Below, in pieces: positions 36,289-46,607 of a stretch of DNA of 53,710 nucleotides. Made by a program: the position numbers and the translations under genes. The DNA comes from Archangiaceae bacterium. Its GTDB lineage: Bacteria > Myxococcota > Myxococcia > Myxococcales > Myxococcaceae. The notes beneath the pieces were generated by a model. It made no database searches, had not been told where the DNA came from, and worked only from the letters and a program-made list of their open reading frames with translations. Location: assembly GCA_016879935.1 (NCBI GenBank), contig JAACJQ010000242.1:1-53710 (forward strand), written 5' to 3'. Numbering within the stretch: position 1 is the first letter of the stretch; every line of letters begins with the position of its first letter.

Positions 36289-38877
<2,589 letters not shown>

Positions 38878-40279: not shown

Positions 40280-41992
40280 TCACGTCTCCAGGAGCGTGTG
40301 AAGACGAGCGGCGAGTTGCGGTTCATGGGTTCTCGCGAGCAGGTGCTGCAGCACTTCACGAACGCCGGGCTCGGTGAGACGCGTGGTGAGCACCGTGACC
40401 CACGCCGAGTCGGCCATCGGGTCTGACGGAGCGTCCGACACGAGCGCGCTCACCGTCTCGACGGGCGCCGAGCCGAGGTGACGAATCGCCGCTTCACGCA
40501 CGCGGGCATCGGCATCGAGGGCGAGCGGCTCCAGCGCCTTCTGTTCTCCAAGCGCACCGAGCGCGTGGGCTGCGGTGGCGCGCACGAGTGGATTCGAATC
40601 GGTCGCCGCGCTCTGCACCTGCGGCAAGACCTCGCGACGGCCACTCGCGCCAAGCGCGTCGAGCCACATCGCGCGACGTTCTGCTCCTTGTGCCTCGGCG
40701 AAGCCTGTCTGCAGCCGGCGAGTGAAATCGGCCGTCATCGCGTCGTCTTGCGGCAGGTGACGGGCGAGCGCGCCGAGCGTCATCGCGGTCGCGCCGACCT
40801 CGTCACGCGAGTGCGCCGTTTCGAACTGCGCGAGGGCGAAGGTGGCGCTCTCGGTCGTCGGCTGGCTCAGCAACGAGAGGCGCTGCACGTAGAGTGGCCA
40901 GGCAGCGTCGCTTCGAGCCGTCTGACTGCCCAGCAACGTCACCAGCGAGTGCTGCGCTTCGGGCGTGCCCGCGTTGGTGAGCAGGTCGAGCGCGAGCGTG
41001 CGGCCGGGAACGCCCATCGTGGGGTCGAGGAACCACTTCTCGACCTCGGTACACAGGGCAGGGTTCGCCGCGAGCAACGCCGTCGCGCGACGGAGCCACC
41101 GGGCGTGGTTCGGCATCTGGCCCGTGCGGCCGAAGTTCGAGAGGTCGTCGAGGAAGGTCTGCGCGGTGAGGCCTTCGATGCGCTGCTCCCGTGCTGACTG
41201 CTCCGCACGGCCCGAGAGCGCGAACCGCTCGTGCGAGACGAACGAGCTCGGCTGCTCCCAGCGCGTCGAGGGCACCTCACACGGCGTGAGCGTCAACGAC
41301 TCATCACTCTCCAGGGCCAGCGCTCCCCCGATGCGGCGCCGGCCCTCGAGGTGATGCTTCAACGCGCGTGAGGTGAAGAAGCCGTTCCACCCCATCGTGT
41401 CGGCTCCGGTGACGGTGATGGTCGCGTCGCTCAGCCCCTGGAGCGTGGGCTGCGAGACGAGCGTGCGTCGAAGGCCCGAGCCATCGCGCGTGTAGCGATA
41501 CGAGCCCGAGCCGTAGCGGTTCGGCTGGGTGACGGTGCTCCCGCTCGAAGCCGCCCTGACGTCGACCGAGAGTTCGTCGTGCAATGCCGAGAGCAGGTGA
41601 ACGACGAGTGGGTCCGCCGCGCCGTCGGCCTCCATCGAGGTGACGCGCCCGGTCTCGTCGACGTGCAGCCGCACCGTGCGCTCGAACGCCTCGGCTGGAA
41701 TCGGCAGCGTCTGCCCGAGGAAGGAGAGCGCGTTCAACCGCACCCGCTCGAGTCGTGCCTCAAGCAGACCGTCACGCACCGGCCGCACGCGCAGCGTCGC
41801 GTTCACATCGAGCTGACTCTGCTGCAGCTCGCCCGCAACCTCGGTGCGGTCGGTGGCGCGCCACTGCAGCAGCCACGCGCGCTCGCTCGTCAGCGAGAAG
41901 TGGACCGGTTCTGACGTCTCGGTGTCGTGACCGCTCCATACGAGGAGCGCCGTCACCACGAGACCAACGAAGACGAGGAGCGCGCGTCGCAT
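40280..41992 (-). CDS. HEAT-repeat protein with beta N-domain (possible lipid-transfer fold)
   Basis: A 570-residue protein with an N-terminal signal or anchor (RRALLVFVGLVVTALLVW). Residues 30-210 are beta-rich (FSLTSERAWLLQWRATDRTE, RLHVDETGRVTSMEADGA, VVHLLSALHDELSV). The rest is helical with clear HEAT/armadillo units near the end (NPLVRATAAHALGALGEQKA, DARVREAAIRHLGSAP). A beta barrel with the phrase ending in a LLSAL helix, followed by a helical superhelix, recalls the N-terminal module of vitellogenin/MTP large lipid-transfer proteins; this is my inference, not established. It is four bases downstream of the secreted-protein gene and 40 bases before the sigma54 activator, all on one strand. 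Confidence 0.7.
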   Translation of the reverse strand: MRRALLVFVGLVVTALLVWSGHDTETSEPVHFSLTSERAWLLQWRATDRTEVAGELQQSQLDVNATLRVRPVRDGLLEARLERVRLNALSFLGQTLPIPAEAFERTVRLHVDETGRVTSMEADGAADPLVVHLLSALHDELSVDVRAASSGSTVTQPNRYGSGSYRYTRDGSGLRRTLVSQPTLQGLSDATITVTGADTMGWNGFFTSRALKHHLEGRRRIGGALALESDESLTLTPCEVPSTRWEQPSSFVSHERFALSGRAEQSAREQRIEGLTAQTFLDDLSNFGRTGQMPNHARWLRRATALLAANPALCTEVEKWFLDPTMGVPGRTLALDLLTNAGTPEAQHSLVTLLGSQTARSDAAWPLYVQRLSLLSQPTTESATFALAQFETAHSRDEVGATAMTLGALARHLPQDDAMTADFTRRLQTGFAEAQGAERRAMWLDALGASGRREVLPQVQSAATDSNPLVRATAAHALGALGEQKALEPLALDADARVREAAIRHLGSAPVETVSALVSDAPSDPMADSAWVTVLTTRLTEPGVREVLQHLLARTHEPQLAARLHTLLET

Positions 41993-41995
41993 GGC

Positions 41996-44179
41996 TCAGT
42001 ACCTCGTCGCGAGCTGGAGGAGGTCGAGGCGCAGCGCCGGCACGTACTTGAGCTCGAAGAGCGTGGCGTCGGCGATCTGCGGCCCACGCCAGCTGATGAG
42101 CTCACGCTCCGAGCTCTTGCCCAGAATGCGGCCGAAGATGGCGACGCGGCCGTCGAGCGCGGTGAGGTTCAGCTTCAGGTTCGTCTCGGCCTCGAGCGAG
42201 ACCTGGGCCTGCTGGTCCATCACGGTCTGCACCCGCAGCGTGAGCGGCAGCGACGCCTTCACCAGCGTCACTTCACCCTTGATGCCCACCTCGATGACGT
42301 ACGCGTCGACGCTCGCCGTCGCGAAGCCGTTGACCGAGATGAAGGGAGTGACGCTTCCATTCGCGCCGACCTCGAGCGTGTCTGACGCAGGGTTCTGGGC
42401 GCAGGTGCGCGTGAGGCCACCGGTGACTTCGACGTTGAAGCCCTCGGTGCCCGACACGCCACCCGCCACCTTCACGGGAACGCCGAACACCGGCACGACG
42501 ACGACGGCGAGCGTCACCTTCTGGTCGCGCGACTCTCCGGTGCTGAGGTGGAAGGTGAGCGGCGTGCGCGTGTCGAGCGGCGCGTAGATGGGCGTGCCGA
42601 GCACCTCGACGCGGCGGTGCGTGAGCAGGTCGGTGTCACCAGGCGCGCCCTCGACCGACTCCGACCACGCGTGCGCGTCGGCCATCAGCAGCGGCTGCGC
42701 TCTGCCGAGCACCGTCGCCTTCGAGTCGAAGAAGCCCTTCGCCACGAGCTGCGCCTCACAGAAACGCGTCTCGAGGTTCGTCAGCCCCCAGCCCATCGTC
42801 CACGAGTACTCGACGCCGAAGCGGTCGTTGCCGAGCTGCGCGCTGTCACCGTGCCACTGCGAGAGCGTCGCCTTGCCGGTCGCGGGGTCGCGCGGCACCT
42901 CGAACGTCTTCGCCCAGTTCTCGATGGCGGTGAGCATGAAGTTCGCTTCGAACGGCGTGCGCAGCCAGTCAGCGGGAATGACGGCCAGGCCCGTGCCCGT
43001 CGCGTTCGGAATGCCCGCGCCGCCCGGCAGCACCTGCTTCACCACGCCCGACGTGAAGCTGCCCGACGAGACGCGCATGCACTTGGTGCGCATCGGCTCC
43101 CGCACGCGGCTCATGTTCTGCTGCAGCCAGCGCTCGAAGAACCGCGGCGACCAGTCCCACCGGTTGACGAGCGACGTGCTGAGCGCGCCGCGTGCTTGCG
43201 CGTTGGTGAGCTCCACCGCGATGGCGAAGTCCATGATGCTCAAGTCGGAGCTGGCCTGCGAGGTGAGGGTGACGCAGTCGGGGTGCGTCGCAGCGCCGTG
43301 GTCGGCGACGCAGGTCGCGAGCTCGGTCTCGTAGCGGTCGTAGCGGTCTCGGCGCGCGGCGAGCCGGCTCAGGTACGCCTCCTGCTCCGCGGCGAGCGAG
43401 TCGAGCGACTCCGGCGTGAAGAAGGCGATGAACCAGTTGCCGTAGATTTGGTGCGTGCTCCAGTTCCACGTGATGGAGGCGGAGTAGGGCGCGACGAAGG
43501 TCGCCCAGCTCGTATTCGCCGAGGTGCCGCCGTTCGGCATGCGCAGGTCGAGCGCCGAGAAGTACGCGTTCTTCGGCTGCGGCCCCGGCATCGGCATCGG
43601 CCCGACGTCGGCGCCATCGGCGGTGCGCAGGTTCTGAAACGCGATGCCGCCGCTCGCATAGGCGGCGCGGAACACGTCGACGCTGGCCGCGCCACGGGTG
43701 GCGTCTTCGAACTCGCTGAAGGAGCGGAAGAAGTCGAAGACCAGCTCGTCGCAGGAGCCCACCCGCGCGCCGTTGCCGCGCCACGCGAGGTGCGGGTCGA
43801 CCAGAAACGTCGAGCCGCCGCCCGAGAGCGCCGCCGTGCGATGCCGCTCGATGACGTGCGCTGCCGTCGCGGTGCCGCCCGACATGAAGTGGCTGCTGAC
43901 GCCTTCGGGAGCCCAGCCCGCGTACGTCGGCGTGTTCGCGCCCGAGAGCTGCTCCGCCACGCTGACGACCTGCTGGGGCGCCGTCCACGCCTGCTTCAGG
44001 TACTCCGCGCGCAGAATCGCGGTGCACTGCGAGGCGCAGAGGCCCGTCGTCAGCGCGCCCGGCTGCTGGCACTGCGAGACCGTCAGGCCCATGCAGCGAA
44101 TGCCGGGGAAGGTGAACGAGAATTGAGCGTTCGCCGCCGACGCGAGGCCCAGACACAACGAGAGGGTGAGTCGTTTCAT
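41996..44179 (-). CDS. Secreted protein of unknown function, first gene of the kinase operon
   Basis: A 727-residue exported protein: signal MKRLTLSLCLGLASAANA with cleavage before QFSF. A Cys-rich start (GIRCMGLTVSQCQQPGALTT) is followed by a large mainly helical region with aromatic and Trp-rich stretches (SASITWNWSTHQIYGNWFIA), then a C-terminal beta region of about 200 residues (GVPVKVAGGVSGTEGFNVEV, VEVGIKGEVTLVKASLPLTL). I do not recognise the family. The ATG at 44179 is chosen because the signal peptide begins there. As first gene of a tight four-gene operon (gaps 3, 40 and 3 bases) with the HEAT protein, it probably forms a functional pair with it in the envelope. Confidence 0.72.
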   Translation of the reverse strand: MKRLTLSLCLGLASAANAQFSFTFPGIRCMGLTVSQCQQPGALTTGLCASQCTAILRAEYLKQAWTAPQQVVSVAEQLSGANTPTYAGWAPEGVSSHFMSGGTATAAHVIERHRTAALSGGGSTFLVDPHLAWRGNGARVGSCDELVFDFFRSFSEFEDATRGAASVDVFRAAYASGGIAFQNLRTADGADVGPMPMPGPQPKNAYFSALDLRMPNGGTSANTSWATFVAPYSASITWNWSTHQIYGNWFIAFFTPESLDSLAAEQEAYLSRLAARRDRYDRYETELATCVADHGAATHPDCVTLTSQASSDLSIMDFAIAVELTNAQARGALSTSLVNRWDWSPRFFERWLQQNMSRVREPMRTKCMRVSSGSFTSGVVKQVLPGGAGIPNATGTGLAVIPADWLRTPFEANFMLTAIENWAKTFEVPRDPATGKATLSQWHGDSAQLGNDRFGVEYSWTMGWGLTNLETRFCEAQLVAKGFFDSKATVLGRAQPLLMADAHAWSESVEGAPGDTDLLTHRRVEVLGTPIYAPLDTRTPLTFHLSTGESRDQKVTLAVVVVPVFGVPVKVAGGVSGTEGFNVEVTGGLTRTCAQNPASDTLEVGANGSVTPFISVNGFATASVDAYVIEVGIKGEVTLVKASLPLTLRVQTVMDQQAQVSLEAETNLKLNLTALDGRVAIFGRILGKSSERELISWRGPQIADATLFELKYVPALRLDLLQLATRY

Positions 44180-44245
44180 GGCGGCGCTCGTTTGCAGGTC
44201 GTGCGCCGTCGAAAGAGGCGAGCCACCACGCGCGGTTGCGGCCGG

Positions 44246-44307
44246 TGTCACGCGAGGCGAACGAGATGTCACACGCGGCTGTGACAGCGGCGTTGGAGCG
44301 CGTGACA
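44246..44307. promoter_or_regulatory. Nested double palindrome, candidate operator
   Basis: Four half-sites are arranged about one centre: TGTCAC 44246, TGTCAC 44267, GTGACA 44281, GTGACA 44302. The outer arms extend to nine perfect bases (TGTCACGCG and CGCGTGACA). Inner arms are separated by eight bases and same-side half-sites by 21, two helical turns. It lies between the divergent starts at 44179 and 44366. Confidence 0.6.
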
Positions 44308-44365
44308 GCGCGACGCAACGACGCTGAATCAGAGGGTGGCACCGTGCGTGCTTTTCAGGCAGCGC

Positions 44366-45247
44366 ATGACCACTGGACCTCTGCAGTCAGCCCTCGCTTC
44401 GCTTCCCTCCATCACGCGCACCGTCACGACCGCCGTCGAGAAGTCGGTCACGCCCACGCCGCCGCTCCCGGTGGTCGACACCGAGCGCTCCACCTTCGAA
44501 GGCCCGCGCGCGTCACTCGTCGACCTGGGCGTGCCGGGCAACGTGAAGACCGACACCATGAAGAACACGCCGAACGGCGTCGTGCAGGACGCGGAAGGCA
44601 AAGCGAACCTCGTCGCTCAGGAGCTGCAGGCGCGTGCGCATGACGCTGCACTGCAGGCGCAGATTCCGGCCAAAGGCGTCGGAAACCCCAAGGGCACCTA
44701 CGGCCCCGTCACTCCCGTCTACACGATGAAGCCGGGTGAGGCCGACCCGACGAAGCTCGAGAAGACCATCGACCAGTTCAAGCCGAGCGTGAACCCGCGC
44801 TACGTGCCGCGTGACGGCAACACGTTCTGCAACGTCTTCGTCACCGACGTCTGCCTCGCCACCGGAGCGCCCACGCCGAAGCCGCCGTACTCCCTCCGCG
44901 CGAACGAGCACGTCGACTGGCTCGGCTCGCCCGACGCGAAGAAGCAGGGCTGGAAAGAGGTGAGCGCGGAGGAAGCGCAGAAGCAGGCCAACAGCGGCAA
45001 GACGGTGGTCGCTGGCTGGAAGAACCCGAAGGCGGGCGAATCGGGTCACGTCGCCATCGTGCGCCCCGGCACGTACGACGCCACCAACGGGCCCACCATC
45101 GCCAACGTCGGTGGTGACGCGAAGACGGGCACGCCGAACAACTTCGAGAAGGGCCCGCTCAACAAGGGCTTCTCTCCGTCTGCGGGCGTGAAGCAGTCAG
45201 ACGTGAAGTACTTCGTCTACGAGGCGCCCGAGAAGAAGGCGGCCTGA
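44366..45247 (+). CDS. Cysteine amidase/peptidase-like protein without signal peptide
   Basis: A 293-residue protein. The N-terminal 145 residues are low-complexity and partly helical. The C-terminal half has a papain-like (CHAP/NlpC-type) signature: Cys155 in GNTFCNVFVTDVCLATG, an aromatic helix region EHVDWLG, and His228 in ESGHVAIVRPG, followed by a beta strand and IANVGGDAKTG. Such enzymes cut amide bonds in peptidoglycan. There is no signal peptide or membrane helix, so export must be by another route, as for type VI effectors, or the target is cytosolic. It is divergent from the kinase operon and convergent with dnaA, four bases apart. Confidence 0.65.
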   Translation: MTTGPLQSALASLPSITRTVTTAVEKSVTPTPPLPVVDTERSTFEGPRASLVDLGVPGNVKTDTMKNTPNGVVQDAEGKANLVAQELQARAHDAALQAQIPAKGVGNPKGTYGPVTPVYTMKPGEADPTKLEKTIDQFKPSVNPRYVPRDGNTFCNVFVTDVCLATGAPTPKPPYSLRANEHVDWLGSPDAKKQGWKEVSAEEAQKQANSGKTVVAGWKNPKAGESGHVAIVRPGTYDATNGPTIANVGGDAKTGTPNNFEKGPLNKGFSPSAGVKQSDVKYFVYEAPEKKAA

Positions 45248-45251
45248 CGCG

Positions 45252-46607
45252 TCACTCGGTGACGGGCACGAGCTTCTTGTGAAGCTCTCCGAGGTCGAGC
45301 TGCAGCTGGGCGTCGTTGCCGCGCAGCTGTTCGATCTTCCGCACGCTCGCGAGCACCGTCGAGTGGTCCTTGTTGAACTTCTTCCCAATCTCGGGGAGCG
45401 ACGACGTCGTCAGCGTGCGCACGAGGTACATCGCCACCTGCCGCGCGTGGGCGACGGGCTTCATGCGGCGCTCTCCGCGCAGGTCGTCGACGTTCAGCTT
45501 GTAGAAGCGCGCGACCTCTTTCTGAATCATGTCGGCGTCGAGCGTGACCTTCTCGGGCATCAGGTCGCCGAGCACCTGCGCGCACAGCTCTTCGGTGAGC
45601 GGCTGGCCGGTGAGCGCGTGCACGGCCGTCACCTTGATGAGCGCGCCTTCGAGCTCACGCACGTTCTTCACCATGATGCGCGCGATGAAGTGCGCCACCT
45701 TGTCGGTCACCGCGATGCCGTCCTGCGTGGCCTTCTTCTTCAGAATCGCGACGCGCGCCTCGAACGTCGGCTCGTGCACGTCGGTGATGAGGCCCATCGC
45801 GAAGCGGCTGCGCAGGCGGTCTTCGAGACCGGGAATCTCGCTGGGCACCGTGTCGCTCGTCATCACGACGGCCTTGCCCAGCTGGTGGAGCGCGTTGAAC
45901 GTGTAGAAGAACTCGTTCTGCGTCTCCTGCTTCTTCCCCAGGAACTGGATGTCGTCGATGAGCAGCACGTCGCACTCGTCGCGGAAGCGGCGGCGGAACT
46001 CGGTCATGCGCTGGTCGCGCACCGACTCGATGTACTGGTTCGTGAACTCTTCGCTCGAGAGGTACGTGACCCGGAAGTGCGGGTTGCGCGCGAGCACGCG
46101 GTTGTTGATGGCGTGCAGCAGGTGCGTCTTGCCCAGCCCGGTGCCGCCGTAGATGAAGAGCGGGTTGTAGGCGCGGCCGGGGTTCTCGCTCACCGCGTGC
46201 GCCGCCGCCGCCGGCAGCTGGTTCGCCTCGCTGACGACGTAGCTGTCGAAGGTGAACTTCTCGTTGAGCCGAATCGCGTGCCGCAGCTGGTTGACTGGGG
46301 GTGCTGACGGCAAACTCGCCCGCGGGGTGACGCGCTCGACCTTCTCCCAGGCCAGCTTCGCCGTACGCCCCGACGCGCGCTCGATGGCCGTCACCACGAG
46401 GTGGCCGAAGTGGTCTTCGACCCAATCGCGGAAAAACAGATCATCGACGCCCATCGTGAGGGCGCCGTCTTCGTACTTCAGCGGCACCAGCTGCTGCAGC
46501 TGGGTGACCACGAACGACTGCCCGTCACGTCGGAGCACGTCGAGCGCGTTCTCCCAGAGATTCCGTGCGGTTGGCGTCGACTCGGCCTTTTCGACGAAAG
46601 CGGACAA
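45252..46607 (-). CDS. dnaA: Chromosomal replication initiator DnaA
   Basis: A 451-residue DnaA. Domain I is at residues 15-85 (LWENALDVLRRDGQSFVVTQ), a short linker follows, then AAA+ domain III with Walker A IYGGTGLGKTHLLHA, Walker B VLLIDDIQFLG and sensor-II region FEARVAILKKKA. Domain IV ends with the DNA-contact signature FNKDHSTVLASVRKIEQL. It unwinds the origin by binding DnaA boxes. The start is a TTG at 46607: no ATG or GTG occurs between it and the in-frame stop at 46620, and a strong GAGGGG ribosome site lies eight bases upstream. The adjacent gene-free region carries the origin. Neither dnaN nor the usual rpmH group follows. Confidence 0.97.
   Translation of the reverse strand: MSAFVEKAESTPTARNLWENALDVLRRDGQSFVVTQLQQLVPLKYEDGALTMGVDDLFFRDWVEDHFGHLVVTAIERASGRTAKLAWEKVERVTPRASLPSAPPVNQLRHAIRLNEKFTFDSYVVSEANQLPAAAAHAVSENPGRAYNPLFIYGGTGLGKTHLLHAINNRVLARNPHFRVTYLSSEEFTNQYIESVRDQRMTEFRRRFRDECDVLLIDDIQFLGKKQETQNEFFYTFNALHQLGKAVVMTSDTVPSEIPGLEDRLRSRFAMGLITDVHEPTFEARVAILKKKATQDGIAVTDKVAHFIARIMVKNVRELEGALIKVTAVHALTGQPLTEELCAQVLGDLMPEKVTLDADMIQKEVARFYKLNVDDLRGERRMKPVAHARQVAMYLVRTLTTSSLPEIGKKFNKDHSTVLASVRKIEQLRGNDAQLQLDLGELHKKLVPVTE

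Follow-up and report, generated by a model that had tools for sequence, protein, structure and literature searches.

The four TGTCAC half-sites in the gap between two divergent genes most likely form an enhancer for a bacterial enhancer-binding protein (bEBP), shared by two divergent sigma54 promoters, and the FHA-domain activator encoded in the leftward operon is the likeliest single candidate for the binding protein. Because -24/-12 sites flank the half-sites at the distance of an upstream activating sequence (UAS) on both sides, and because half-sites and promoters recur in an orthologous region, we prefer the bEBP enhancer among the possibilities that an earlier, sequence-only reading had raised for this element.

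Half-sites and promoter-like sites between two divergent genes

The arrangement TGTCAC-N15-TGTCAC-N8-GTGACA-N15-GTGACA was found exactly as the sequence-only reading had described it, at positions 44246–44307 of the window (the whole stretch of 53,710 nucleotides analyzed here), centered on 44276.5 and with outer arms of 9 bp. All four hexamers are exact matches: the outer half-site 1 (TGTCAC, 44246–44251, + strand), the inner half-site 2 (TGTCAC, 44267–44272, + strand), the inner half-site 3 (44281–44286, − strand, reading GTGACA on the + strand), and the outer half-site 4 (44302–44307, − strand, likewise GTGACA on the + strand). The resulting spacings are 21/14/21 bp. The cluster occupies the 186-bp gap that separates two divergent genes (ATGs at 44179 on the − strand and 44366 on the + strand), and neither sigma70-type promoters nor terminators were found in this gap.

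With 22 occurrences in the whole window versus 27.8 expected, TGTCAC is not over-represented, and the four copies within 62 bp therefore constitute a local cluster. A pattern of three half-sites had no match across 100 dinucleotide shuffles of the window, and TGTCAC-N8-GTGACA occurs only once in the entire source genome of the window (G000; 9.5 Mb, 445 contigs). By sequence alone, the element is only moderately surprising. If the hexamer is chosen post hoc, 40 shuffles of the window yield 6 perfectly symmetric quadruples, or about 0.15 for each shuffled window. Palindromy across the whole 62 bp amounts to 20/31 pairs, and about 2.6 such centers are expected per window; being no better than in shuffles, this overall symmetry was rejected as evidence. 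What makes the element significant is its placement, with a sigma54 promoter on either side, and the fact that it recurs elsewhere.

These promoter-like sites, which were absent from the sequence-only reading, point outward, one on each side of the half-sites. They were detected with an approximate sigma54 weight matrix (PWM), modeled on the published consensus, that was scored at every window position. The site facing the rightward gene, TGGCACCGTGCGTGCT (44337–44352, + strand), ranked first of 107,390 in the window, and the site facing the leftward operon, CGGCGCACGACCTGCA (44193–44208, − strand), ranked sixth of 107,390. In a plain consensus count, each agrees at 10/12 positions, which places both in the best 12 of 1,139 GG-N10-GC sites, and they are hence not unique by this measure. 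Both have the GG-N10-GC core in a TGGCAC/TTGC context, with the A missing from GGCAC and CTGC replacing TTGC in CGGCGCACGACCTGCA. The distance from the -12 GC to the ATG is 14 nt at both promoters, and by the usual sigma54 geometry, the rightward mRNA would start at about 44363 and the leftward one at about 44182, in both cases 3 nt ahead of the ATG. Relative to these predicted starts, the center of the half-sites lies at −86.5 (rightward) and −94.5 (leftward), within the range of about 70–200 bp upstream of a sigma54 start where the dyads or repeated half-sites of a UAS are located. The composite pattern GTGACA-N12-42-GGC-N8-TGC-N13-15-ATG matched three times in the whole G000 genome, two of these matches being at this locus, and its reversed-pattern control did not match at all.

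The rightward target gene (44366–45247, + strand) encodes a protein of 293 aa with a weak resemblance to CHAP domains and without a Pfam match above the cut-off. In 25 of 99 related genomes, the source genome of the window counted among them, diverse and frequently larger proteins contain segments that match residues ~95–270 of this protein, as would be expected of a mobile effector-type domain. Convergent with this gene lies a gene for a full-length DnaA-like protein (45252–46607, − strand) with the Pfam DnaA N, ATPase, and C domains.

The leftward operon, entirely on the − strand, begins with the gene of a secreted 727-aa protein that belongs to no Pfam family (P0002, 41996–44179). It continues with a HEAT-repeat protein (40280–41992), whose weak Vitellogenin_N match to the lipoprotein/vitellogenin N-terminal domain has a Pfam E-value of 0.003, which is below the cut-off. 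Its gene lies directly beside that of the large secreted protein, for which no family is known. The third gene (P0003, 38881–40239) encodes an activator with an FHA domain, an AAA+ sigma54-interaction domain, and an HTH, the candidate enhancer binder; its ORF is open from 40359, and 40239 is the first ATG past the stop of the second gene. The sequence-only reading had recognized this protein as an operon-encoded sigma54 activator with a Fis-type HTH, in agreement with the GAFTGA motif that is present and with a C-terminal Fis HTH_8 match just under the Pfam cut-off (19.7 bits versus 22). The fourth gene (36289–38877) encodes a Ser/Thr protein kinase with TPR repeats, a candidate source of the signal that reaches the FHA activator.

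Conservation and recurrence in other genomes

Among 96 family genomes (own included), only G050, a genome of another genus that is 80% complete, was found to encode a protein closely related to P0002 (60% identity), and the conservation of the half-sites thus rests on this single orthologous region. In G050, the operon is preceded by an extra lipoprotein gene, and beyond that lies a divergently oriented gene. The 137 bp that separate these two genes hold two outward-facing -24/-12 sites, each 13 nt from an ATG, which rank first (C608:4189) and third (C608:4106, − strand) within the 19.5-kb contig. Between them are CGTCAC (C608:4153), GTGACA (C608:4161), and GTGACA (C608:4173), with spacings of 8 and 12 bp. 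A global alignment of the two gaps reached a score of 64.5 (300 shuffles: mean 36, maximum 59.5) and paired the two G050 GTGACA sites with half-sites 3 and 4 at 44281 and 44302. Half-site 2 has the imperfect counterpart CGTCAC, and half-site 1 is without a clear counterpart, so that three of the four half-sites recur before the orthologous promoters, one of them imperfectly.

Both promoters and the half-sites are hence kept between G000 and G050, while the spacing has changed from 21/14/21 bp to 8/12 bp. Conservation therefore extends to the promoters and to three half-sites, and the 21-bp and 14-bp spacings are lost. The proposal of the sequence-only reading that exact 21-bp spacing arranges the half-sites on one face of the DNA, as for a cooperative tetramer, did not stand up to this comparison, nor to the varied spacings of other sigma54-linked clusters (8, 12, 16, 18, 20–23, and 35 bp). 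We rejected the exact 21-bp geometry as a functional feature, as it is not conserved.

A search for the motif upstream of other genes, proposed along with the sequence-only reading, was positive. Exact half-site pairs within about 40 bp were listed in G000, G050, and G010, blind to sigma54 sites. In G000 and G050, 9 of the 33 half-site clusters examined had a sigma54 site with a PWM score of at least 10 within 110 bp and in the correct orientation, compared to about 0.8 expected; random placement in the same loci came near such a site in about 2.5% of cases (binomial ~9e-8 for 9/33). The 33 clusters include the GTGACA pairs of G000:C278/G050:C722 and C275/C521, which resemble coding repeats and were counted but not read as regulatory. 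In all nine sigma54-linked clusters, the sigma54 site is the best of its locus, and in several of them, the ATG follows 13–14 nt past the -12 GC. The products near these clusters, as far as they were examined, are mostly lipoproteins or secreted proteins, for example, a PDZ lipoprotein, a pentapeptide-repeat protein, a Kelch lipoprotein, and an InlB-repeat lipoprotein. Single half-sites are uninformative, as their combination with a sigma54 site was only weakly above the reversed-pattern control in 59 family genomes. Homologs of P0001 were rejected as a regulon, as their 29 loci were without GTGACA clusters.

Two further GTGACA-N15-GTGACA pairs with similar internal sequence were seen in G000 (C245, locus L161; C341, locus L159). 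Each precedes a GCAC-N5-GTGCA element with an ATG 14 nt on, and the -24 GG is imperfect or weak in both. In G034 (L238–L240) and G033 (L215), TGTCACCAGG-like direct repeats spaced at 20 or 23 bp lie upstream of very strong sigma54-like sites; these repeats probably serve a different activator from the same half-site class.

Upstream of every distant homolog of P0002, from four genera (L034–L041, L054), a sigma54-like site ranks first, mostly at a distance of 46–59 nt from the ORF start (33 nt from the listed GTG start of L041), and GTGACA clusters were not found upstream of these homologs. At L034–L041, GTTGCC-N5-GGCAAC-like inverted repeats lie upstream of a conserved CGGCACG-N4-(G/C)TGCT site, and these repeats are likely the target of a different bEBP. 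Sigma54 control of the P0002 family thus seems to be old, with the enhancer apparently swapped between lineages.

Candidate binding proteins and alternative readings

The FHA activator is a plausible binder of the element, and bEBP operons are often autoregulated. GTGACA clusters were absent from 14 loci around relatives of the FHA activator; several of these relatives share the KDRKQVYRW recognition helix with the activator. Their operons are without the first two genes. Only G010, in which the gene order P0004-P0003-kinase is also present, has the operon in common with G000, and there the contig begins too late. At one relative (L252), a sigma54 site with a score of 15.4 lies just downstream of the activator gene, together with the half-sites GAGACA, TGTCTC, and TGTCGC.

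It is quite conceivable that the protein bound to the sigma54 enhancer is another, family-wide bEBP of the TGTCAC half-site class instead of the operon's FHA activator. The empty loci of the 14 relatives point in this direction, as does G050, where the motif is present and an ortholog of the FHA activator was not found. In addition, GTGACA pairs stand by strong sigma54 sites in genomes without a detected close ortholog of the activator (G034, 3 of 4 pairs; G033, 2 of 17; G022, 2 of 10; G016, 1 of 6). In three genera (G006:C82, L335; G022:C90, L228; G016:C1:2.40 Mb, L233), the gene of a conserved protein of about 55 aa, with a core resembling VWxxRL...EYRCxTExQAR, is preceded by GTGACA half-sites together with a sigma54-like site. 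However, the spacing and flanks in those genomes differ from G000 and G050, and several regulators may share the core half-site. Moreover, the G050 genome is incomplete, its contig breaking off within the gene that directly precedes the expected place of the activator, and both the TGTC-like half-sites at L252 and the frequency of autoregulation in bEBP operons favor the FHA activator. On balance, binding by the FHA activator and binding by a different bEBP have about the same probability.

In other bacteria, the Pho box consists of direct CTGTCAY repeats with an 11-bp period, and the half-sites could accordingly be regarded as an operator for an unrelated regulator of the two-component or repressor type, for example, a PhoB-like protein on direct TGTCAC repeats. 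An 11-bp spacing is in fact the commonest class of GTGACA pairs in relatives (19/161), with one such pair upstream of a Ppx/GppA phosphatase gene. The element itself, however, has a spacing of 21 bp and no intermediate repeat, none of six examined 11-bp pairs is near a strong sigma54 site, whereas several 12-bp and 20–23-bp pairs are, and sigma54 promoters are not, as a rule, where PhoB-type regulators act, all of which makes such an operator improbable here. The 11-bp GTGACA pairs resemble Pho boxes and must not be pooled with the 12-bp and 20–23-bp classes. Near-identical, Pho-box-like TGTCACACA(A/G)ATGTCAC elements with an 11-bp repeat were observed in G022:C43, G050:C589, and G021:C224.

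A functionless chance arrangement of the four hexamers, with which the post hoc frequency of symmetric quadruples and the unremarkable overall palindromy would be compatible, is very improbable given the position of the cluster exactly between two top-ranked sigma54 sites, the counterparts of three half-sites in G050, and the genome-wide association of half-sites with sigma54 sites.

Proposed mechanism and comparison with known systems

For the shared bEBP enhancer, we infer the following mechanism. The element would act as the UAS of a putative bEBP and serve both divergent sigma54 promoters, the leftward one driving the operon of the secreted protein, the HEAT protein, the FHA activator, and the Ser/Thr kinase, and the rightward one a single gene. 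Activator dimers would bind the TGTCAC half-sites and then assemble the AAA+ oligomer, and DNA looping over ~86–94 bp either way would allow it to remodel the closed sigma54-RNA polymerase complexes at the -24/-12 sites. The neighboring Ser/Thr kinase is the natural candidate for the input, as its gene is adjacent to that of the FHA protein, which it may switch. If the FHA activator is the binder, its own operon would be autoregulated.

A broader proposal, which we put forward only tentatively and consider rather doubtful as a whole, is a previously undescribed Myxococcaceae sigma54 regulon. In this regulon, the FHA activator and the Ser/Thr kinase of its operon would act through flexibly spaced TGTCAC half-sites, and shared bidirectional enhancers with near-leaderless mRNAs would control genes of secreted proteins and lipoproteins.

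Myxobacteria have many FHA-type sigma54 activators, for which, to our knowledge, few DNA targets seem to have been described. The locus offers a concrete and testable target, with a candidate activator and a candidate kinase in one operon, and the analysis also yielded a small set of other candidate promoters. Its two promoters with predicted 3-nt leaders also provide a test case for sigma54-driven, nearly leaderless translation.

Multiple half-sites with a TGTC core in a flexible arrangement are also found with PilR of Pseudomonas, which recognizes repeated (C/G)TGTC sites; the regulator family and the target differ. The sites of NmpR in Myxococcus xanthus are pairs of GCGCA-N5-TGCGC (PMC11841059). 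As here, a sigma54 promoter in a myxobacterial divergent gap is preceded by paired NtrC-like sites, and the activator gene is part of the operon, but the half-site is another one, NmpR is a response regulator and not an FHA protein, and a pair spacing of 14–15 bp is preferred (PMC11841059). The predicted bEBP motif of the DVU2894 regulator, yGTCA-N6-TGACr, is likewise an inverted repeat with a GTCA/TGAC core that was assigned to a bEBP, with N6 between GTCA and TGAC versus N10 here (PMC4641369).

In Desulfovibrio vulgaris, the divergent orp operons with the bEBP DVU2106 and sigma54, which were studied experimentally, resemble our locus in that palindromic bEBP sites lie between a pair of divergent sigma54 promoters and that a bEBP gene is present in the cluster (PMC3897727). 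They differ in having two palindromic DVU2106 sites with IHF sites between these and each promoter, in the sigma70 control of the DVU2106 gene, and in leaders that carry Shine-Dalgarno sites, as opposed to the predicted 3-nt leaders described here (PMC3897727). Divergent sigma54 promoters with intervening bEBP sites are thus already known, and the present locus is a new, well-supported candidate example of this arrangement.
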